From NCBI RefSeq assembly GCF_019649055.1, contig NW_026570266.1, forward strand, positions 930,001 to 994,000: a stretch of DNA of 64,000 nt, read 5' to 3'. Below, piece after piece: positions 43,101-61,294 of this stretch; position 1 is the first letter of the stretch; every line of letters starts with the position of its first letter. A program made the translations under genes and the position numbers. This DNA comes from Paramacrobiotus metropolitanus (lineage: Eukaryota; Tardigrada; Eutardigrada; Parachela; Macrobiotidae). The notes under the pieces were generated by a model. It did not search any database. It was given only the letters and a program-made list of their open reading frames with translations, and was not told where the DNA came from.

Positions 43101-46100
43101 ATTATTAAATTAATATTATAATGATGAATTCATATCCTCTACTACTTTAAATTAATTCAGCGTTTTTTTGCGATGTATAAATTCGTAATTTTGTTTTAAA
43201 ACCAGGCCAGTGTAGTGATTAGTTTGATTGTGTAGGGCGTCGATGATCTGGATTATCGGTGAATACGCGGAGCGCATTGAGAACGCCAACGAGCTGCTGG
43301 AGTCCTTCCTGGAGGGCTTCGCCGACGAGAACAGCCAGGTGCAGCTGCAGCTGCTGACCGGCATCGTCAAGCTCTTCCTGAAGCGGCCCACCGACACGCA
43401 GGATCTGGTGCAGAAGGTGCTGACCCTGGCCACCCAGGAGAGCGACAATCCCGATCTGCGCGATCGCGGCTATATTTACTGGCGGTTGCTGTCCACCGAT
43501 CCGGTCATTGCCAAACAGGTCCGTATTTTTTCGGATAATATTTTTTCTGGAAATTGCTTTATTCTGTGCGTCGTGTTTAAAAGTGATAGGCAATTAGTAT
43601 AAAAAACTTTTGAAGTGTGCTTGTACTTACTGAATTAGTTTATTTTTTGGTTCTAATCAATTTTTCTGGTACTTACACCGTTTGAGGTCGTGAAAATGAG
43701 ATGATTTGCTGATATCAGATGAAGAAATGCAGTGATTTGTTGGAGCTGTTAAGCATTTTACGTTTTTATCAGAATTAGTACAGAGAAAAAAATTTTTTCC
43801 AGAACATTTTTAATTTCAGAACTTTTTTTAAAGCAATTCCAAAACATTGTCATTTTTTAACTGCCTGAGTGAAATTAAGTAGTTGGTTAGTTAAACCGCG
43901 CACATATGAACGCATCGTAGTGTAGTGACTCCACTAGTGGTGACATGGCGGGTACTAAGTACTAACTGACCAGGTGGTTCGCGTCGTTGAGATTAAAATT
44001 GCACGCTGCAGTTACATAAGATTTGTAGTATATTTTTGCTGTCAAATGCTGTATTGAAAATCCTTTAATTTTGAATTTTTTTTAGTAAACTAGCGTGGCA
44101 CGTAATATGCTAGCGTGGCACGTATATGCTAGCTCAAACGATCTGCAGACATGTAAATTAAAATTGACATTGAATTGGGAAAATTAAAATGGAGATGGAA
44201 TGTGCTGGTTGCGGTAGGTGGTGTTGGCGGAGAAGCCGTTGATCTCGGAGGAGACGGACTGTCTGGAGCCGACGTTATTGGACGAGCTGTGCTGCCACAT
44301 CGGCACCCTGGCCTCCGTGTACCACAAACCGCCGACGGCCTTCATCGAGGGCCGCACAGCCATCACCCGCAAATCCCTGCCGGCCCGCGTGGCCTCCACC
44401 AACGGCGGCCAGAGCCCGGGCGACGCCGGGGCCTCCCCGCAGCGCCCCTCGGTCATTCCCAACCAGGATTCCCTCATCGGTGACCTCCTTAGTCTGGACC
44501 TGGGTTCACCCGCTGGACCGCCGTCTATGGGCGGCTTCGCCATGGGCGTGGGGGTGCCCAGTGGCCCCACGGGGGCGCAGGGGCTCCTGGATGCCGATCT
44601 GGACAGTCTGGTACGTTGGGACAGATTTCGTCGTGATTTGTAGAATTAACTATCATTTAATATGAATAAACAGCCGTTTTATTATTTATTTTATTGGTGT
44701 GTAAATAATTTTTCTCTGCATTTATTTTTTGTTGTTGCTTGAAAAAAAGGAGTTAATTTGATTGTACGAAGAGAATTTTAATCCGTTTTCTTTTCTATAG
44801 TTAGAATAATTTGATTGTACGAAGAGAATTTTAATCCGTTTTCTTTTCTATAGTTAGAATAATTTGATTGTACGAAGAGAATTTTAATCCGTTTTCTTTT
44901 CTATAGTTAGAATTGACTTTTGTTAGAAATGGAACGTATCTGTAAAAGTACTTTTACCGTAAGCGTGTTGCACGTGGTGCAATCGTAGTGTATGGGTTTA
45001 CTGAGTTCCGGTACAGACAGAGCGTTGAACGTCTTTCGTACTGATAAAAAAGTAAACGTTTTAAAGTATTGTTTTTGATATCTGGTTTGTTTTTCTGATG
45101 AACGGGGCGAAGGTGTTTAGAAAGGTGAAATCAGCCAGCAGTGATTCAAGATAATTTGAATTTTATAACAGCTGTTTTGTACAAACGTATGAGATGAATA
45201 AATCGTTAATACAAGGCATGATTTTGCTATATTGATTTGTTTTCTTGTTTCGTTAAAACGTATTCGGTTTTTGGTTTGGCGCTGACGTTTTCTCTTATGC
45301 ATGTGAACTTGCAGAAAAATGTGTGTTAATTTTACAACGGGAAGATAATATTTACCAGAATTTCAAACGGCGCGAGTTCCTGTTGATAACTTACTCCGTG
45401 ATTCGACGTTTCTGTGTGTGTTTGACAGCTGGGACCGTCGGAGCCGTCGAGTGACCCGATGAGCGGCAGTTTAGGTGGCGCCAGCAGTCAGATGGGCGGA
45501 TTCGGCGGCGGCAGTGGAGGGCTGGCGGATCTGGTGGGATTCGGCGGCGGTGGACACACCGGACCCGCTGGCAGTGCCGGACTGCTGGGCGACATCTTCG
45601 GATTGGCGCCCGGTGCGCCCTACGTGGCGCCCAAACAGGTGAGCCAACAAATTTATTTTAATACGAAATTAATGTTTATTTGCAATCGAAATTCAGTGCG
45701 GTCTGTAACGCGTTTTTGCTATCTTGGTAATGTGAGAAATTTTTTAATAACTTAATTTTTAATAGAACCAGTCGATTCTTTGTATTTTATACGAATTGTA
45801 AAACTGACCACAGGGATTTGCCAGGATTTCCGTTTGATTATTTACTATTTGATTTTATTTATTGAAATTCATTCTGGCATTGGACATTTTTTTACTGTTT
45901 TGTTCATACAGCAAATTCTTTGTTTATTTCCCAGCGAAGCCAATCAAGGGATCCCTAATTTATAAAATTATAGAATTGACCAAACACGGGTTAGCCGAAA
46001 TTTCCTTGCAATTTATTTTTATTTAAGTATTATTTATTTTCTTGAAATTTATTCCGCCTTTGGGCGCTTTTTTGCTGTTTTGATAGTGTGAAAAAATTTT

Positions 46101-48599
46101 GAAGGTATTTTTATGGACATCAAGCGGTGCTCCTTTTTCACTAAAATTGTAAAATCAACCACAAGTGTATCAGGAATAATTTTCCCTTGCCATTAGTAAA
46201 ATGAGCAGTAATTTCTGAATACATTATTATTTTTAAAGTTTCTTGCCTTGTATTTTTCTTATTATTTTCGGTCGCTGCGAGTGTAACGGTGGATTTCGGT
46301 TGACGTGTGTAGGTGTGGATGGACCCGGCCAAAGGCAAGGGCCTGGAAGTGCACGGGACCTTCGCGCGCCGCAACCGGCAGGTGTGCATGGAGCTGACGC
46401 TGAGTAATCGCGCCATGCAGGCTATGAGCGACTTCGATATCCGCCTGAATAAAAACAGGTAAGAATTGATTTTTCTCGTACATTTTCACACACCAACATT
46501 TTCGCATACACGTATTTCAACCTGTGGTGAAGACGTATTTCAACCTGTGGTGAAGACGTAGTGCAAGGGCGCTGTCAAAGCCATCTATTATCTGTTGTTG
46601 GCTGGGCTTTTCCAATGAAAACGATAATAATTCATGATTAATGTACGTTTGTTATACTCTAATTTTTTTACGAATTGGCCGTCTGGCGTAGATTTGTGAA
46701 CATTTTAAATCAAAGTGAATGTAACAGAATAATGGCGTTACCAATTTTCTCCGTGAATGAGCGGTTTGGCCGTTTTGACTTGCTTTATATCCTTACAAAA
46801 TGCATGGCCCGTAGAAGATTGTAACGATATCGTAGTGTATGACTGCAAGGGCGTAGTGTTGCGGAGTTGGCGGGCTGTTCGTGTAGTTTCTTTAAAGATA
46901 ACCACGTTAAATGTTCAGTATGTATTTTTACTATGTTTTGCTCTGTTCAGTCTCTTGACGGAAATAATTGGTGGAGTTCCTATGGGGTTTTAATCGTAGT
47001 GATAAAATGGATTTATTTATGCGGTGGAGTAATTATTTAATGCATGCGGCACTGGTTGCAGTTTCGGTCTGACGCCCTCGGCGCCGCTGGTCGTCCGCTC
47101 GCCGCTGCCGCCCAATCAGAGCGCCGAAGCCAGCCTGGTCCTCAACGTCACCGGGGAGATCGCCAAACAGACTCCCCTCACCAATCTGCAGGTATTCTTC
47201 AATAAACGGGCGTTTTGTGAGAATTTTTCCTAGTTTTTTGTAATTGAAGCAAGCATCTGCTGCGTTTTTTACGGACTTAAATACATAAAATGTATCACTA
47301 ATTTTAATGATACATAGATAGTGTTTTGGTAAATTTTTTATAATGCTGTAAATTGACCTTTTTTGTTATTTTTTTATTTTTATTTAATTTTAACCTTTTT
47401 TGTTATATTTTTATTGTGATTTTCTTATTTGCAGATGCATATAATAATAACATTGTTAGTAATTGTTGTAGCATGTTGTTTTAGTAGAATAACCTGTTTT
47501 ATAATGTTGTTTTAACTAGTACGTTTACATTGGTGTAAGAATGAACGTCCTTTGCTAATTAAATTTTTTCTAAGCGGGAATCTGACTGCATTAATTTTGC
47601 TTTTAATTTTTTCCAGTAACGGAATTTTTCTTGCGTATTTGTTTGTGAAGAATAATCGATTGTGGAAATAAATGTCGATATGTGTATTGACCGTTGGCCG
47701 GTTGTCCTCTGCAGGTGGCGGTGAAGAACAACATTGGTGTGCACTACTTTGCGTGTCTGGTGCCGATGCACGTGTTCTTCGTGGAGGATGGGTTGATGGA
47801 GAAGGGCGTCTTCCTGGCCACGTGGAAGGACATTCCGCCGGAGAATGAGAAGCAATTCGAGATACACACCGCCATTCAGGATATCGGTGGGTTTCTGTCA
47901 TCGTCTCATCTTATCACATTTTTGAAAAAACAAACGGTTTAATGAAACATTTACTCGTTAAAATCAGTTTTCTTGCAGATTTTCTTTCTTAGCTGTATTA
48001 AAATAGTTATTTATCCATTAAGAAGGTAAAATTCATGATTACTCAGAACGTAATACAAAGAAAAACCCGAAACCGCTTTAATAAAAATTGTTTAAAACTA
48101 AAAGATAGTTGCAGAAAATAATTTGAACGATAGGAAAGTGTTAAGAAAATCATGAAAAATAACACTTAATACAAAGTCCATTAAGCTTTCTGTTTTCTGC
48201 CGGCGGAGTTTTGAATCAGTGGAGTGAATAACGTTTATAAAAATAATCAAGTTAATATTTAGCTTAATAATAAATCAATTCAACCAAATAATTCTTAAAT
48301 GAATTAATTCTACTGGTAGTAATAAATTAATTGAATAATTGTATTGACTGGTGTTTTTTTGTGTGGCAGAGACGATCAGCGGTAAACTGCAGGCCAACAA
48401 CATCATGACGGTGACGAAGCTGACCACGGACGGGCGGCAGTTAGTGTACTTATCCCTGAAACTGACCATCGGCATCTGGGTGCTGTGCGAGCTAAAGGTC
48501 AACGCCATCGCCAGCGGCCACACCCTGGCGCTCAAATCCCGCGTCCCGGACGTGTACGGCGGCGTCGTCGAGACTTTCCAGGGCATTTTATTATCCTGA
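37165..48599 (+). CDS. AP2B1: AP-1/AP-2 clathrin adaptor complex subunit beta
   Basis: Sixteen exons give 965 aa: 37165-37201, 37287-37392, 37472-37607, 38121-38366, 39260-39447, 41456-41680, 42223-42404, 42493-42617, 42786-42874, 43236-43518, 44218-44610, 45429-45638, 46313-46458, 47062-47191, 47715-47886, 48370-48599. All phases agree. The trunk (residues 1 to about 590) matches animal beta-adaptin, for example [18 protein letters not shown] and [17 protein letters not shown]. The Ser/Gly-rich hinge holds a clathrin box LLSLD (about 629-633). The ear (from about 741) keeps [10 protein letters not shown] with its partner-binding tryptophan. The protein links cargo to clathrin; most invertebrates use one beta chain for both AP-1 and AP-2, so the symbol is approximate. 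Two donors are weak (GTCCGA after exon 7, GTCCGT after exon 10). Confidence 0.97.
39791..41395. repeat. AT-rich tandem repeat (~110 bp unit) interrupted by an insertion
   Basis: AAATAATTAAATCATTTACT followed by GGTATGANAATCATAA and AATCATTAATAAATCATTTA occurs at 39793-39857 and again at 41243-41308. A third, shorter copy begins near 41371. The 1.3-kb element at 39866-41181 sits inside the array, in intron 5 of AP2B1. Confidence 0.6.
39866..41181. mobile_element. 1.3-kb element with palindromic terminal inverted repeats
   Basis: Both ends carry an inverted repeat of about 75 bp built from the palindrome CTATGCGCCCGGAA..TTCCGGGCGCATAG, followed by GTTAATTTG and a second CTATGCGCCCGG copy. The right end has one further half-copy. 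The interior has three open stretches on the plus strand (40050-40286, 40306-40548, 40628-40879) with no domain I can name. TTAATTAAA lies outside the element on both sides (39850 and 41190) and could be a 9-bp target duplication, but 8 bases at each edge do not pair. It lies in intron 5 of AP2B1. Confidence 0.65.
42421..42470. repeat. 25-bp tandem duplication in an AP2B1 intron
   Basis: Two exact copies of a 25-bp unit beginning GCATTATTTTTAAATACAAA lie directly after exon 7. Confidence 0.85.
44755..44913. repeat. three exact copies of a 53-bp unit in an AP2B1 intron
   Basis: Units at 44755-44807, 44808-44860 and 44861-44913 are identical. Each contains ATTTGATTGTACGAAGAGAA and CCGTTTTCTTTTCTATAG. 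They lie between exons 11 and 12. The CTTTTCTATAG end of each unit resembles a pyrimidine tract plus acceptor. Confidence 0.9.
46510..46555. repeat. 23-bp tandem duplication in an AP2B1 intron
   Basis: ACGTATTTCAACCTGTGGTG followed by AAG occurs twice in direct succession after exon 13. Confidence 0.8.
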
Positions 48600-48661
48600 A
48601 CAGCCAGGACCCGGTCGGAATATACGCCCCCCGGGGTGGGGATAATTTCCGGAATTTTTTG

Positions 48662-50667: not shown

Positions 50668-53600
50668 TTAATCCTTGATCAGGGCTTTCGAGAACGACAC
50701 CCGCAGGTGGGTGTTCTCGTTCAACTGGAAATTGTGCATTTTCTGCAAATGAAAATAAATCAAAATATTATTCAAAGTGAATTCGCCGGAGAAACAGCAA
50801 TTACATCATCAATTAAAAGGAACAGGAAAAAACACAGTGTACTTAATTCTGATCAACTGAAGAAATATAATATGTAACACACAAGAAGAAGCAACCATAT
50901 TTTATTATTGTGTACAAATTAACTGCAGAAGCAGGCAGTAAAGCAAAAAAACAAATTTTAAGAAAAACAGTTCGTTTTAAATGAACTGAGTTCCCGGAAA
51001 TGAACTGCAAAATTATACTGGAAGTAATTCTTACATTTAGTGGAAAATGCATAAAAATCGACTTACAACAAGGGCTTCCACGGCCTCGTCCACGCTGCCC
51101 AACTGCACCAAGGCCATCTTGTGGTCCTTCCTACACAGCCAACCAAAACAACCAATTAGCCGACCAGCGTTTCTCACGATTTCCAATGCTCAAAATTAAT
51201 TACGAAATATTAATGTAGAAATTTTTAATAAAATATATTTCACGCTAATTAATAATCAAAGGCCAATATTTAATAATAAAAACACCAGCAACTGTCTGCT
51301 GGCGGCCGTACGTACGGGAAGAAGCGGAAATGTTTAACGGCGAATCCGTTCTGTGCAAAGTAGTGCACCACGTTCTCCTCCGTGATCGTCGGCCTGCAAA
51401 ACCACACAGCATTCACAGATCAAAATCCATAGAAGAAAAAGAACAGATAATACGATAAAAATTAATTACCAATAAATAAGAAGAAATACGATAAATATTA
51501 ATTAAGTACATAAATAAAGCAATAAAGGTCAATTAAGTATACATAAATAAAGTAATAAGTACAACTGTCAATAACAGTATGCCGATTCGAACGCGCGTTC
51601 ATCAATAACAGTATGCCGATTCGAACGCGATACTAACGGGAGATTGGAGAGATGCAGGGTGGAGTTGGGCGGGTAGATGTTGAGGTAGTTCTTGGAGCCG
51701 GGTTTCTTGAAGCGGTGCAGCGGAGAATTGGAGAAGTCGCGCGTCAGTCCGCAGTCGGGCTGCGACTCCTTGGGCAGCTGCACTTCGCTGTGCTTCGAGC
51801 TGGTCACCTTCAGCGCCTTGTTGAACAGCCGCACCCGGTCCAAATGCACAATCGCTACACCAACAATGCCCATCGCCATGATTTTTATACAGCAGCAATA
51901 CAAAATAATAAATTATTAAAAATATATAACTGTAAAAAAATACAATATAATAATAACTGTCACTGTATTTAAAAAAAATTATTAAAAACTTCTAATTCAA
52001 CGTCAAAAACTATGCAACAGCAGTAAACAGTAGACATGCATAAAACGGTGAAAACGTAGTACAACGGGTCTAACGACAGCATTGTACTTCGTTTCAGCAA
52101 TGTGAAATCCACACGTTAGACGGCATGATATTATTAGAATACTCAATCAATCCTTTTTTTATGTTTTTGGACCGAATAAAAACACCGAAACTAATGAATA
52201 AACACAGCCCAATACCGGATCTCAAAATTTCCCGCACAGCCCTGCTAAACTGCTTGAAGGAAAACACCAAAAAAGCATTATTTCACCTGGTATTTATTCA
52301 GTACGTATGCACTTCCTTACCGAATTTAGTAAAGATTGTACACGAATTTTTAATGCAACGTACCGAGCTGCGCCTGCCGCGGTTCGGCGTACTGGATCAG
52401 CGCCGTGTCCTTCTTGTTGAAAAGGATCTTCACTCGCAGCACATCACCATACACGCCTGCAAAATTTCACAAATTTTCAGAAATTCCCGAATTTTCAGCG
52501 GATATTTTTTCCACAAAATCCCGCATTTTTTAACGGACAATTTCACTTCACAATTATGCATAGATTAATTATACAGCAGCAGAAAAATACCAGTTATATA
52601 GCAGCAGATTTGGTAAAATATAAAATAAATCAGACGGGTGTGAGTCGAAACAACCAGAGTGCCGCCAAATAGAAAATAAGCTCCGAAAAATACAGTATAC
52701 CACAGCGAAAATAAAATAAAAATCACGGTTGAATAATACAACTTGTCAGACGTACCAAAGAGGATGAAAAGGATTTCTGGCGTGACCAGCTGTGACGAAA
52801 AAAAAAACAACAAGAGCCACGTGAGAGAAAGCCTGTGTCTGTGTTCGATAAAAGCAAAAAAATAAAAATCCAAATTCCAACACAACCACACCGGCCTCCA
52901 CACTTCCAGCCGCCATTATTATTCGGATAAATCAAAAAAAGAATTACTTTCAAAGCAGAGTCAAACAGCACACACTCAGATGCAACAGATGCGAGGATCA
53001 GCAAGTGTGTGCGGCAAATAAAAACAGGAGACAAAGCGCGCAGAGGACGGAATAAAAGCCGAATGTGCTGTGTGTGTTGGAAATTAGAAGGGGAAATTTT
53101 TAGGGGTTATTGTGCGATGTGTGCATACCTCTTCGTTGATATTGCTGACCAGGACGACGCTCGCGCCTTGGGCTAACCGGCCCATATTGCCCAGGGCGGC
53201 GTTCAGCGAGTTGGCCGTCAGTCCAGCTGCAAATCATCAATAAAGATAAACGCACTAAACTAATAAAATCATAATAAAACAATACCGAAAAAAATATTAA
53301 AATTAAAACCAAAATAAAATAATAAAATTCAAGGACCAAAGTAGCAAAATAACTAATACAATCATAATAAACAAATATCAGAACTACAAATTAAATGCAA
53401 GGACAACTGAAGTAGTAATGCGACTAATTACCAAATAAAGACTATCGACGGTCTGCGGCGAATCCGCTTGACCGTTTACCGCCCTGCAATGTCTTACGAG
53501 TTACAGTTGAGATCGTAGAAAAGTGGCAAATGATCTCAAATAGATGGCTACGCTACAATATATGTATCTGGCAGAAAACTTAGAACGCAACCAGAAGCAT

Positions 53601-56600
53601 TTGCTTAGATATTAAACTTGTTTGTAAGACATTTTAAACTTTTTTTGTAAGAAAAAGGAATTATTAATTATTTTGCACATTGGTACCATGCAAGAGGGAA
53701 GCGCTGTAGGGATGGCCGGCCGCCGTGTTGAGGCCGGGAATGTTATGGGGCGACGCGGCGCCGAGACCATGCAGGAGGGAATGCGGCGACAGCGCCAGAC
53801 CGGCCGGATTAAAGCCTACCACACCACACCAACGCTCTATTTCACCGCACACGCCAATCAAGAAAAATCGAGCATTTCACCAACAACCATTCCCAGGGAT
53901 TAGGAGAGCCTTACCGGACAGATGCAGGGGATCCGGGAGGACGGTGGCCTCGCCCGAGGGCAGACCGGGGTTGGTGTAGTCGCGGCTCTTGTCGTTGTTG
54001 AAGGTCACGCGCAGATTATCCAGCCGCGAGTACTCGATGCGCAGGGTGCAGCAGCCGGCGTAAATGTTCTGTCCGTCCAGTGACTACACAGCCAACAAGT
54101 TCCAACAATTAAAAATACAGAATAATAATATAAAAACATAATATTAAAAAAAAATTAAACAAAAAATACAAGTACGAAAATATTACCATCTACAAGCTCT
54201 CTGATTCGGAACCGTCTGATTATTGTTAGAAAACGACGGACAAATATATGTACATATTTCCCCGGTTGAGAAGCAACCCTTCTCGTGCGTATTGTTAATT
54301 CTACTTCCCGTTAATTCCACTAATAATTATTAATAATGATCATTAATTTATGAGAGAGTGCGGGAACAAAAAATTAGAGGAAAACAAATCTGTTTTATGT
54401 TTCCGTTTGTCCAGCATGTGATTGCGAAAATTTGCATCCAATGTGAAAAAAAAGGAAATTTCTGTTAAAGATCACACACCGAATTCACATTTTTCTATTT
54501 ATATTGTCAACTGCCGTTCGTTGGTACAAACTTCAAATCACTGTGAGGTCGGGTCTGTGTGAACCACTACACTACACGATCACACTAGCTGCTACTAACG
54601 TCCACCGTCAATACTGTGTACAAAGCCAAATCGGTAGAAACAGTCAATTATATAAATACTAACGCAAATTTCACTACAGAGCTGATATTTCATTCATACA
54701 GCTGCAGATGCTGTGATAATTCGCAGAAAAATAAATACACCGTATTTACTGGAAATTAAGGGGGAAAACTGTGTACAGTACCTGCTTAGCCAGCGACGCA
54801 CTTTGACGGTCGGGATACTGAATGAGCGCTTGATACTGCTCTACAGGAACACAATAATCAATAAGCAAACACCGTAAATACTTTACTGTTAAAAGAATCA
54901 GTAAAGAAAACAGTGCAAAAACACAGCAACGAACTTACGATTCTTGGTGAAGGTGATGATGCGTAATACTTTGCCGAATCGCGAGAATATCTATCCGAAA
55001 AAGAAATCTCATCACACCCTATCCAATAGTCCGTTAAGCATCACAATAAAAATGAGTACTAATTTCTAACCAATCAATTTACCAAAATAATTAATTATTA
55101 CAATAAAAACGTTTTCAATTAAATAAATAAAATAAAAACATTTTCTCACGTGAAATGTCACCAAAAAAATACCGAATAAAATCAATAAATCATCATAAAA
55201 ACCAATATTAACTTAATATGAATTTTCGACACGCTAATATAGAGCATTTTCACCGCTCACCCCGTGGAGGACGTCGAGGGGAATGGGATACATCATGTTC
55301 TCGACGACCACGCGCAGGATGGTGTTGATGCCGCCGTACTCGGCGTGGCCGCCGTTGACGCCGGTGGGCGAGGACTGCTGCTGCTGCTGTTGTTGGTGCT
55401 GCTGCTGCTGCTGATGCAGCGCCGCCAACTGGTGTAGACCATTAGCGCCGGCCAGCAGCGGGCTCATGCCGGCCATTAGGTTGGGCGCCGCCATGTTCAT
55501 CATCATGTTCATCGGCAGGCTGGCCTTCATCAGGGACGCCGCGTTGTTCACCTGTCCATGTTCAGTTCACAAAAACACCGTTAGCTGTGTTAATTCACCA
55601 CGCCACACCATGTCAAAAAAATCATAACATTATACGGCGAAAAATCAGATAACAACACTAGCCAAAATAAAGAAATTTTTAACAATTTTTAACAGTTTTA
55701 ACAATAATTTTTAACAATTTAACAATTAATAGATAATTTTTAACAATTATTATGTGTTTTAAAAACTAAAACATGCATGCATACCGGATAAATTACGACG
55801 AATTATTATCACAAATAAATTCCAAGAAAACGTAATGCACCTGATAAAATTACAACAAACATTAAATAAGAATATAATTTATATAAAGAAAAATTACGAA
55901 AAACCGCAAATTACGGAGGTAAACGAAATGCCAATTATCTACACAATTTCCCGCAAATTACCAGCACTGATGGCAAAAAATTCAAGCAAAAAATAATATA
56001 AAACCGAAAATATGACCATATATAAATTTTTTCATTTTTTATCGCCTCAATTCACTCGATCTACCGAGCTTCGAAAAGAAGCAAAACGCCAAACAAGCGC
56101 AGCGAAATATTCATATGCAGTCAAAATTTCTCCACCACCGCGAACACGCCCCACAGCCGCATTCAGTTTCAATATTTTCGCAGGGAACATCAGCGATAAA
56201 AGTGCGCATTTGCATTCCGCATTGGGGCGCGATATCACTTACATGGTTGGCCATGTGATTCTGGTGATCGGTTTTCAGTTCCTTGTGCGTGGAATGCTGC
56301 ACAAAGCATTGCTTGTTCTTGACCATGCAGGGGAAGCCCGAGTTAAAGTAGTTGACCATCTGGATGGCCGACACTTCGTCCACCATCTCCAGAAACGCCT
56401 GCAACAAAATGACAGAAAAATGCAACTTCCACGCCACAACTTAACAAAACTACCGGATAAGATAGCACTTAACAAATAAACGATCCCAAACGTAATGGAC
56501 AAATAAAAGATCTTAATACGCTCGAACAGGCAAAAGCAATAAAATAAAAAAAACATTTCTGGAAAAATAAAAAATCCAGAAAATGGATTAGTAAACGAAA

Positions 56601-59600
56601 AGAAATACAAAATACCCAAACAAAATCATGAAAAATATAAGCACAATATCCGCAAATTTAAACAGGAAACAGGCGAACGGGGTAATAAAAAAAGCCTGAG
56701 AAAATGCAAGAAAATTATAAATAAGACTTGAAATACGAATGAGATCCCATCAGGGCGGATTCGGACAAAAAACTGTATTTTACCGCAGTCAAGGCAGCTA
56801 ACCGATGCTCGTACCGCAGTGCAAAATCGAGCGAAGACCACAGTTAATTAAAATTTATTAAATTATTCACAAACTAAATTAGTTCAGTCAAAACTGGCTC
56901 GAAATCTCAATTATTTCAAGTCCGCCTGAAATTGTAATAAAGTTTTCTAGACATTTTACCAGCAGATTTTATAGCGGAAAGCAAATTAGTACTACAAAGC
57001 GAACTTTATCAGACGAAATGAGCGGCTGTGCTTAATGAGTAAGACGCGGCTGAAGGGAGCCTGTCAAAAACAGCCCGATAACGCCGGTTCGTCATATTTC
57101 CCAAAAACACCCGTTCGGCACGTACTGGAGATTTATCGGCTTTACTATATGCTGCACAATATCATTACATCCACCGCCAGCAAGTCTTGCTTTGCCTACA
57201 CCGCGCTTATCAAACCGACAATTCAATCACACCGAACAGCTGGAATTCATCAATTTTTCACAAGGAGAACGCCGCGTTTACAGCCGCACAACAAAAATAA
57301 ATAACAGAAAATAATTTACTGTATTTATATTTCTTACAATTTCAAACAAATTAATTTTGGAATTACGTACGCAAATTTTCGTAATAAAGCACCGAATTAA
57401 AAATCGAAAATAAAGGAAATTTAAATTATAAAAAGACCTCTTACTATATCGTATTAATTTTGTAATTTCAAACAAGTTATTTCCTAATTATGCAAGTTTT
57501 CATAATAAAGGGCCGAGCTGATAAAATAAAATTTTCAAAATTAAAACAATTATTTATTTTTATAATTTCAAACAAATTAATTCCGTGATTATGCAAACAG
57601 CACAAAAAATATTTGCAGTAATTGCTGAAAAATCTGTATACAGCCCAGTAAATCAATCAAGAAGAAAAACATAAACAATCGATTTTTAACCAGCCAGTCA
57701 CACACATTACAACCATTCTTATCCGTCTGTGTTTACACCAACGAACAACACCTTGCACTGAATAATTGCCAAGCCATTTGCCGCGCAAAACGTCTGTCTA
57801 TTTCCGGCACACAACGTTATCAATGGAAAATGCTAATCATAACAACAGCCACGCAGAGCGCCGTTTCCCAGCTCTGGTTTTCTGCACAGCCGTTGAACTG
57901 ATTTCCTTGCAGCGCGCATTTTGAGGCCGCACACTGGCACACACTGAACCGGGTTTAAAATGGTGTCAGACTGTTTGCATAAGACGCAAACGCTGCCATA
58001 AAACATCACCAATTATACACACACAAACTACGCGCATACTCAAACATCAGCGCTGCTGCATTGTGCTTCCAAATAGAGCAGAAAATTTCGCGGAAATTTT
58101 TTCCTCTACTAACATAGGTTTTTCAAACTTAAATGCCACACTGCGAGTTTTTAAAACATCGAATATGAATTCACTTTCAATCCTTTTAATTACAGGGATC
58201 AATACATATTCCGTAGCATAACTAAAAACGACAGCTGAAATCGTAGAACACTGGCGGATTATGGCGTTGTAAAAGAACAAATATCAGAGCCAAAAAAAGT
58301 ACTGTTATTACAAACCACTGTTACGAAAAACCAAAAATTTTCATTTTTTTCCACTGGAAATTTCTGGATAACGGTGTTACAACAATGACATCACAATCTT
58401 AAATCTTCACAAAAAATATGCCGAAACCTAACAAAGAAATAGTGCTTAACAGTTCGTTCGAAACATTTTTAAATACGTACTAAATTTTTTAATATTAATT
58501 TGCTAATAACGATATAACTGGCGTCAATGAAACTTGAATGGAGGGAATATTTATTTGCGTGCGGTACTGTACCTGATTTTTGCCTTTGAGAATGAGGACA
58601 TTGTTGATGCGGCCGAAGGCCAGGCCCACCGCGACAATGTCGGCCTCCACGCAGTCAGCCGGTACGCCGCGGATGTGGACGACCTTGGAGGGGGAGGTGG
58701 CCGTGGTGTGCGCGTGGTGGCCCATGCCGCCACTGCCGTTGCTGCCCGCGCCGTTGGCGGTCCCGTGGTGGTGGTGGTTGTGCGTGCCGTTCCCGTTCAT
58801 CACCGTCCCGTTGGTCCCGCCGGCTGACCCGTTCGTCAGGCTGTCATGGCCGTATCCGCCGGCTGACTCATCCAGTTTCGCCTGTCCAACATTCAAAAAA
58901 TACTCAATACAGCAGACAGACTTTTTTTATATTTTATACTTTTTTTCCCCTTTTTTACAGGAATTTTAATATTTGTGCCCCTGTTTATTATAATAAAATT
59001 CATTTATTTATTAAAAACAATATTCTAAAAATCTGCTTGACCGTTAATTTTTTTACTAATTTTACATAACAGTAAAGCAAATGTTCAAGTCTAAAAAAGA
59101 ATCAAGAAGGTCACAAAAAATTTAAAAAAATGAAAAACGTTCATCCCATATCAGAAACCTACGAATTTGTTGACTCAAAACGACACTCGAAATAATTCCG
59201 AAAGGAAATTAAATGCTACTGCTTGTCTAAATTTCACACAAGTAAGTATTCGTAGCTGCACTGTTTCTATCGATGTTTACGGTTTCTTTGCACAAGATTA
59301 ATCTAGAAGATGTCTGCATTTTATCGCTTCTTATTTTTTTTCGCAGACAAATAATCGCCTGAATCACTCACTTTGGCTTGCGGGCATCAAACACAAATCG
59401 CAATCAGCGTGAACGTGCCCAGATAACGCTTTTACGTGCACTTTTTATGTAACTTATTGTCAAAAATGATATCACTGCGATTCCTCATAACAAACGCCAG
59501 GCTGTCATATTAGCAATAAAAATTAGATAATCAATAAAAAATTTCCCAAAAATGAAAACGCAACTATAGAGAAAAATATTACTGAGTGAATCTCGATCAT

Positions 59601-61294
59601 AAATTTTGTCTTAATTATTTTGATTTGATCCTCAAAGCTCCGGTAACTTTTTTTAATAATTCGTTTATGATTACTTTTTTCGGAAAATAACTAGCGATTT
59701 AAATTTCTTTTAATAATTACATTTTTTGGAGGAAATATCTAACGATAAAAATTAAAATAATGCAACGCCGTGTCGTCGCGCGCCGTTGGAAATCGGAAGC
59801 ACCTTTTTGATTTTCAACCGGCAGCGACACCTGTTCGCGGATCATTTCCGTATTGAACTGCAATATTTTTTTTGCTTGATCAGCGCAACACCGCCGAGCA
59901 GGTGGCTGACATTCTGAATTAACCCGCGATACAAACTGAAAATGCGATCAACAAGTGTTGTTGAACCAGAACACGCGAAACCCAATCGATGGAGAATGCA
60001 TTTTGCGCGTCGCTGTCTACCGGAAATATGAATGTGTATCGCCTAGTTCATTCGCCGTGAATCACAGCCAATTTGGCCGAATAGTCACGCTCCGGCATAT
60101 CGCATCGCGTTTAAAAGCTGATCAACGATCAATGTCAATGCACATCAGTATATGCCATCCAATTATTGCGCCAACCAAAATATATGACTCAATTTGCGAT
60201 ACCGATCGTCAAAATCCACTAAACAATGCAATAACTTGAAACACAACTATTTTCAAATACTTCCCAGCTTTATTCTCAAAATTTCAGGCAGCCCAAAAAA
60301 TTCACAGACAAACATTTCAACTACTTATTTGTTTTTAACACATATTTTATTTTAATTATTTATTGTTTAGCCGTCATTAAAAATATGAATTGAATTAGAA
60401 AAATCTCAAAAAAACCTTTTGGAACTACAATATTCATTAATCTACGGCTTTTTATATGCATTTTCTTGAATAAATAAACTTCGCTGCATTTCAAATTTTG
60501 ATTCCGTCGCGCGTGGTTCAGAATACCAACGCAATTTGGAATTTTCGATAAAACTGAAAACCATAAAAAATCAGTAATTACAGTCCTATTCTCAAGAACC
60601 GAAATTTTAGCAATTTAAAGTTATGTTTCAATTAAGTATTAATCTATTTTTACTTATTTTATTGGTGCTGTATCACAAATTTTCCCTATTTTAAAGCAAC
60701 GAAAGAATGTCGCCGAAAAAAATTCGCCAAATACTTACATAACGTACCAAAACTCAGTGAAATCCAAAAAATACAGAAACATGTTATCAAACTGAACAGC
60801 CGGAAAAGTACTTTTGCAGCTGTCCACAAAAATCACCATGACAACTGCGAAAAGGATCAAATTACTTACAAAAACGCTATCGTTATAATCGAATATTTTT
60901 CAAGCAGAAGTTGCTAAGTGACCGTGGACCGAACGGCAAAAACAATATTCAATTTGGAAAACTGATTAAATAAAATATAAAAAAATAGCAATAAATGCGG
61001 CACACCACTGACCTTCTTCAATTCGGCTTCGGAGCCCATGGGAGCCTCACCCGCGGACAATCCGTTCATCGTGGCGCGTAAATCTGGCTCATACACCTCC
61101 TCCAGACTTCTCTGCAACGGCAACAAACCGCAAAAACCCAATCAATCCGGGAATTCCACAAAAACCAAATTAGCGTTACACTAACGAAAATCTTCAACAA
61201 TTCGGGTACGCGACTGCACAGTAACCATCAACCGGATCTCGCTCACCATTAAGAACGCCTTCATCAGGTCGGTCGAGCGTGGACAACAATAGGG
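50668..61294 (-). CDS. PTBP1: polypyrimidine tract-binding protein, four RRMs (5' end not located)
   Basis: Sixteen exons in agreeing phases give 656 aa: 61247-61294, 61013-61111, 58573-58881, 56243-56398, 55261-55551, 54939-54990, 54782-54840, 53915-54083, 53687-53815, 53129-53226, 52756-52789, 52364-52456, 51638-51854, 51316-51393, 51067-51130, 50668-50742. The protein binds CU-rich RNA and represses splice sites in the nucleus. RRM1 runs from [11 protein letters not shown] to LKGKNQ and HKEL; RRM2 from [17 protein letters not shown] to [16 protein letters not shown] and [19 protein letters not shown]3 from [10 protein letters not shown] to [19 protein letters not shown]4 from LHLSNLPPTITEE to [10 protein letters not shown]. 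The RRM1-2 linker has Met-rich and poly-Gln stretches. The first exon seen ([14 protein letters not shown]) lacks a start, so an upstream exon is missing. Hephaestus is the fly orthologue. Confidence 0.93.
51568..51629. repeat. 28-bp direct duplication beside a PTBP donor site
   Basis: TCAATAACAGTATGCCGATT followed by CGAACGCG occurs at 51568-51595 and 51602-51629, ending 8 bp from the donor (CCC|GTTAGT on the minus strand) of the exon at 51638-51854. Confidence 0.8.
52756..52789 (-). other. PTBP1: 34-nt frame-shifting exon of PTBP (RRM3)
   Basis: This exon encodes [12 protein letters not shown], the equivalent of VTPQSLFILFG in vertebrate PTBP1/PTBP2. It is 34 nt long with start phase 0 and end phase 1, so leaving it out shifts the frame. 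The intron just upstream contains CTTTCTCTC (52822-52830) and CTCTT (52811-52815) on the transcribed strand, followed by a T-run, which are PTB-type binding sites. In vertebrates the corresponding 34-nt exon is skipped by PTB itself, leading to nonsense-mediated decay. Confidence 0.75.
55375..55414. repeat. CTG/CAG trinucleotide tract coding for poly-glutamine
   Basis: The plus strand reads CTG/TTG repeats; the minus-strand PTBP frame reads two glutamine runs separated by a histidine in the linker before RRM2. Confidence 0.85.

Follow-up and report, generated by a model that had tools for sequence, protein, structure and literature searches.

A 34-nt frame-shifting exon in RRM3 of a PTBP gene is a candidate member of the PTB autoregulatory switch family

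Introduction

The locus described here raises the question whether a PTBP gene outside vertebrates and nematodes carries the short exon through which PTB proteins control their own mRNA, and whether this exon is likely to be used as a switch. The switch at mammalian PTB exon 11 reportedly goes back to an original report by Wollerton in 2004. Several features of the system are described in the literature cited here. The counterpart exon in PTB and in nPTB/PTBP2 is 34 nt long. Mammalian PTBP1 and PTBP2 use it as an autoregulatory switch, in which PTB-driven skipping is coupled to nonsense-mediated decay (NMD) (PMC6547761 for PTBP1 exon 11). In one dataset, human PTBP1 exon 11 showed little and insignificant change upon depletion of UPF1/XRN1 or of PTBP1, with values of -0.04 and 0.03 (PMC6547761). 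The vertebrate exons are preceded by long AG-free zones: 381 nt in human PTB exon 11 (verified branch point at -351), 438 nt in nPTB (predicted branch point at -389) and 590 nt in Fugu (predicted branch point at -566) (PMC1431707). Exon 10 of the paralogue ROD1/PTBP3 is the vertebrate counterpart exon as well, with a conventional branch point near the exon; there is no EST evidence of its skipping.

Among invertebrates, C. elegans ptb-1 has in exon 11 a cassette exon of 34 nt that belongs to RRM3; smg-2 and ptb-1 mutants showed that skipping of this exon is PTB-1-dependent and leads to NMD (PMC4876481, 2016). A C. elegans splicing array contains a ptb-1 event, exon unspecified, that is marked as having no premature stop and hardly differs in smg-1 (ratio 0.06 on a log scale; PMC2265522). 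The accessible parts of PMC10342978 and PMC4477659 hold nothing on invertebrates. Among the matches listed in the open-licence literature, covered by title and start of the abstract, there is no report of a 34-nt PTB exon in a tardigrade or an arthropod.

Results

A single PTBP locus found in the genome

The window analyzed is a stretch of 64,000 nt. The gene on its minus strand belongs to the PTBP family by RRM architecture and sequence. The predicted protein contains the Pfam domains RRM_5, RRM_1, RRM_8 and RRM_occluded. RRM3-4 align with the human PTBP1 structure 2adc at E 2.3e-81 and match the PTBP2 structure 2mju at E 3e-79, while hnRNP L is a far weaker match (best E 3.1e-13). In our model the coding exons span 61111 to 50668, the first of them containing a candidate start ATG, and any exons further 5' lie outside it (Table 1). 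A search of the animal's own genome (169.8 Mb, 533 contigs) identified a single PTBP locus, with five out of five matches falling inside it; no PTBP relatives were found in viral_contigs and genome_contigs. The genome also encodes a UPF1-type zinc-binding domain (best match 87.2 bits, cut-off 25). A convergent neighbour gene on the plus strand, at about 44200-48600, resembles by eye the large subunit of an adaptor complex (adaptin).

Table 1. Positions in the window of the PTBP gene and of the features around its 34-nt exon
Feature	Position	Strand	Remarks
PTBP gene, coding exons 1-15 as modelled	50668..61111	-	exon model; 14 GT-AG introns; sole stop ends the joined frame
Exon 9, 5' flanking exon	53129..53226	-	ends in phase 0 (...NINEE)
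Intron 9, 5' of the 34-nt exon	52790..53128	-	339 nt; AG-free zone 41-43 nt
CTTTCTCTC tract, candidate PTB site	52823..52831	-	overlaps candidate branch point CTCAC (-33); shuffle P 0.022 in last 60 nt, 0.066 in whole intron
T10C polypyrimidine tract of exon 10 acceptor	52797..52807	-	run of 11
Exon 10, part of RRM3	52756..52789	-	exactly 34 nt; phase 0 in, 1 out
Exon 11, 3' flanking exon	52364..52456	-	93 nt; carries the frame-shift stop upon exon 10 skipping
TGA reached upon skipping	52430..52432	-	66 nt before next splice junction; four junctions downstream

Exon 10 and the consequence of its omission

The preliminary description had proposed a 34-nt, frame-shifting exon in RRM3, and this is borne out by the exon model, in which exon 10 occupies 52789-52756 in phase 0/1. 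The gene thus has a 34-nt exon in RRM3, as is characteristic of the PTB autoregulatory exon. The splice sites are ...ttttttttttcgtcacag/CTG at the acceptor and TTG/gtacgt at the donor (the slash marks the exon boundary). Exon 10 codes for 12 residues of RRM3, whose equivalent in human PTBP1 is RVTPQSLFILFG in the 2adc alignment. The residues first given as SLFILFG read EILFILFG in this protein. We presume from length and domain that the exon boundaries coincide exactly with those of the vertebrate and worm exons.

The exon, its phase, the frame-shift and the position of the resulting stop are observed directly. The skip junction predicted earlier, 53129 to 52456, proved right: on the exon model, this join adds eight foreign codons (ACMVMCCE) followed by TGA at 52432-52430, which ends 27 nt beyond the junction. 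Skipping therefore shifts the frame and produces an NMD-type stop, a feature that is not specific. An early stop with junctions downstream also results from omitting exon 5, 6, 7 or 9, so that five of the 13 internal exons behave in this way. Furthermore, when exon 11 was recoded synonymously 20,000 times, 90% of the versions had a stop in the skipped frame, since the protein sequence makes one all but unavoidable.

RRM3 of the hnRNP L-like gene lacks the two framing introns

An hnRNP L-like gene of the same genome (G000:C129:143919-145072; L006, L007), located with a human fragment, has an RRM3 without either of the introns that frame the 34-nt exon of PTBP and reads straight through the corresponding stretch (GAVVMLYGLNMDKFNCDRLFNLFCMYGNVMRVR). 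An intron pair common to PTBP and hnRNP L was thus rejected for this genome. In this genome the exon pair therefore belongs to PTBP and not to every RRM3 in the superfamily.

Intron 9 has a short AG-free zone and one UC-rich tract

Intron 9 shows neither the extended AG exclusion zone nor any sign of the remote branch point of the vertebrate form. Its nearest yUnAy site, CTCAC, is a candidate branch point at -33, and with an AG-free zone of 41-43 nt no distant branch point is indicated. Longer AG-free zones, of 73-169 nt, precede the acceptors of five of the 13 other introns (6, 10, 11, 12 and 14).

CU-rich, PTB-like motifs had been claimed immediately upstream of the exon. This holds for one tract, CTTTCTCTC at 52831-52823, and fails over intron 9 as a whole, where PTB pentamers are not enriched (9 vs 10.7 expected, z -0.42, 300 dinucleotide shuffles) and their density ranks fifth among the 14 introns. 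The hexamer set behind the shuffle P values of Table 1 was picked post hoc, after inspection of the sequence. Within the last 60 nt, two of the 14 introns contain tight UC-rich hexamers (TTCTCT, TCTCTC, CTCTCT, TTTCTC): intron 9 has three, overlapping one another at the candidate branch point, and intron 14 has one. When the hexamer set is widened, introns 9 and 12 are equal over this stretch, with 4 each. CTTTCTCTC stands out weakly, and post hoc, near the candidate branch point. We tested and rejected a synonymous-codon preference for PTB motifs in exon 10 (pentamers 2 vs 1.16 expected, P 0.40); of the 14 remaining exons in the same test, exon 12 alone gave a P below 0.05 (0.04, uncorrected).

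The exon 10 acceptor is strong. Intron 9 has the longest pyrimidine run within the last 40 nt of the 14 introns (11, followed by 10 in intron 4), and its acceptor is the most pyrimidine-rich of the 14 (16/20, the next being 15), which fits a constitutive exon too. Two further properties of intron 9 were recorded. Its C content is 0.23, whereas the 13 remaining introns taken together have 0.139 (z 4.7); we dropped this as evidence because one 339-nt window of intron 1 is as C-rich (0.233). Intron 9 also contains a 120-nt stretch on the minus strand (53067-52948) that is open in phase 0 and could be an in-frame cassette exon, with a plausible acceptor (ttccaacacacacag) and the donor AAA/gtaatt. 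It may well be a chance occurrence, because an open frame starting at the first base is seen in 704 of 6884 intron windows of 120 nt.

Discussion

We propose that exon 10 is the orthologue of PTBP1 exon 11, PTBP2 exon 10 and C. elegans ptb-1 exon 11 and that it serves the same negative feedback, a reading to which we assign a probability of roughly 0.65. Abundant PTB protein would bind pyrimidine sites around the exon 10 acceptor, for which CTTTCTCTC adjoining the branch point is a candidate, and this binding would block inclusion of the exon. Exons 9 and 11 would then be joined, translation would end after the eight foreign codons, and the skipped mRNA would be destroyed by NMD. By analogy with the known systems, PTB binding, skipping, decay and feedback probably occur in this animal as well. 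The 34-nt length, the place in RRM3, the frame-shifting phase, a stop that precedes four junctions, the first by 66 nt, and the presence of a UPF1-type domain all speak for such a switch. The tight UC-rich hexamers at the candidate branch point and the finding of a single PTBP locus are further points in its favor. The balance in favor of regulated skipping, which we rate about as highly as the switch itself, comes mostly from the evolutionary bracket. The exon is autoregulatory in mammals and in C. elegans, hence the most economical assumption is a loop passed down from a shared bilaterian ancestor, and mammals and nematode bracket the lineage studied here if it is that of a tardigrade.

Comparison with the known exons reveals both likeness and difference. 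As in PTBP1 exon 11 and PTBP2 exon 10, a 34-nt exon in RRM3 causes a frame shift and a premature stop when skipped. Unlike in these vertebrate genes, the AG-free zone is short and the candidate branch point lies close to the exon. With C. elegans ptb-1 exon 11 the locus shares a 34-nt RRM3 exon of an invertebrate PTB gene whose skipping shifts the frame; in the worm, however, dependence on PTB-1 and NMD were shown experimentally, whereas the likeness here consists of length, domain and frame shift. ROD1/PTBP3 exon 10 is likewise a counterpart exon, and its branch point is conventional and near the exon.

This last paralogue lends color to a different account, which has a real chance of being correct, although a clearly smaller one than the switch. 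The flanking introns could be old and conserved, the 34-nt exon always included and the stop on skipping no more than a consequence of the protein sequence. Among the vertebrate paralogues, exon 10 of ROD1 seems to fit this description, and its persistence without detected skipping counts against the switch, as do the short AG-free zone, the candidate branch point at -33 and the lack of pentamer enrichment in intron 9. The ptb-1 event of the C. elegans array and the small response of human PTBP1 exon 11 to depletion of UPF1/XRN1 or PTBP1 also weigh against it. A constitutive exon would also agree with this conventional candidate branch point, with the strong acceptor of exon 10, with the stop in 90% of the synonymous recodings of exon 11 and with the four other internal exons that give an early stop if skipped. 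Against constitutive inclusion stands the use of the exon as a switch in mammalian PTBP1 and PTBP2 and in C. elegans ptb-1. The overlap of the tight UC-rich site with the candidate branch point, a post hoc observation, points in the same direction.

Two other accounts are far less probable. Exon 10 might be skipped alternatively but mainly under another factor, or PTB might autoregulate elsewhere in its gene. The modest content of PTB motifs around exon 10 and the unexplained in-frame open pseudo-exon of 120 nt in intron 9 would agree with this, but PTB itself is the demonstrated regulator in mammals and worm, and we judge such an arrangement improbable. We give still less credit to an independent origin of the exon boundaries with a length of 34 nt by chance. 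The sole point found in its favor is the absence of both introns from the hnRNP L gene of this animal, so that an RRM3 does not need them, while length and RRM3 residues are the same as in PTBP1 and an RRM3 exon of the same size exists in C. elegans. Such a coincidence is hardly credible.

Returning to the autoregulatory switch, how it might operate with a branch point near the exon is a more tentative matter. The loop could run here by PTB masking the branch point via CTTTCTCTC. In that case the feedback would date back to the bilaterian ancestor, and vertebrates would later have elaborated an older, simpler switch by adding the remote branch point and the extended AG-free zone. We regard this scenario as possible, but rather doubtful.

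The preliminary description had also held that the switch, if the exon is used, would be far older than vertebrates. The homology of the exon, the logic of frame-shift and NMD and the pre-vertebrate age can be retained. The locus is, however, not what establishes this age, because a 2016 paper had already described the switch in C. elegans ptb-1 (PMC4876481). Thus, the locus is probably best read as a further candidate member of a known autoregulatory switch. If the exon is used in this way, it would add a further lineage to a feedback circuit shown in mammals and nematode, which fits an origin predating the split of protostomes and deuterostomes. Such use would further suggest a conserved core of the circuit that comprises the exon and the frame-shift, with the distant branch point lying outside it.
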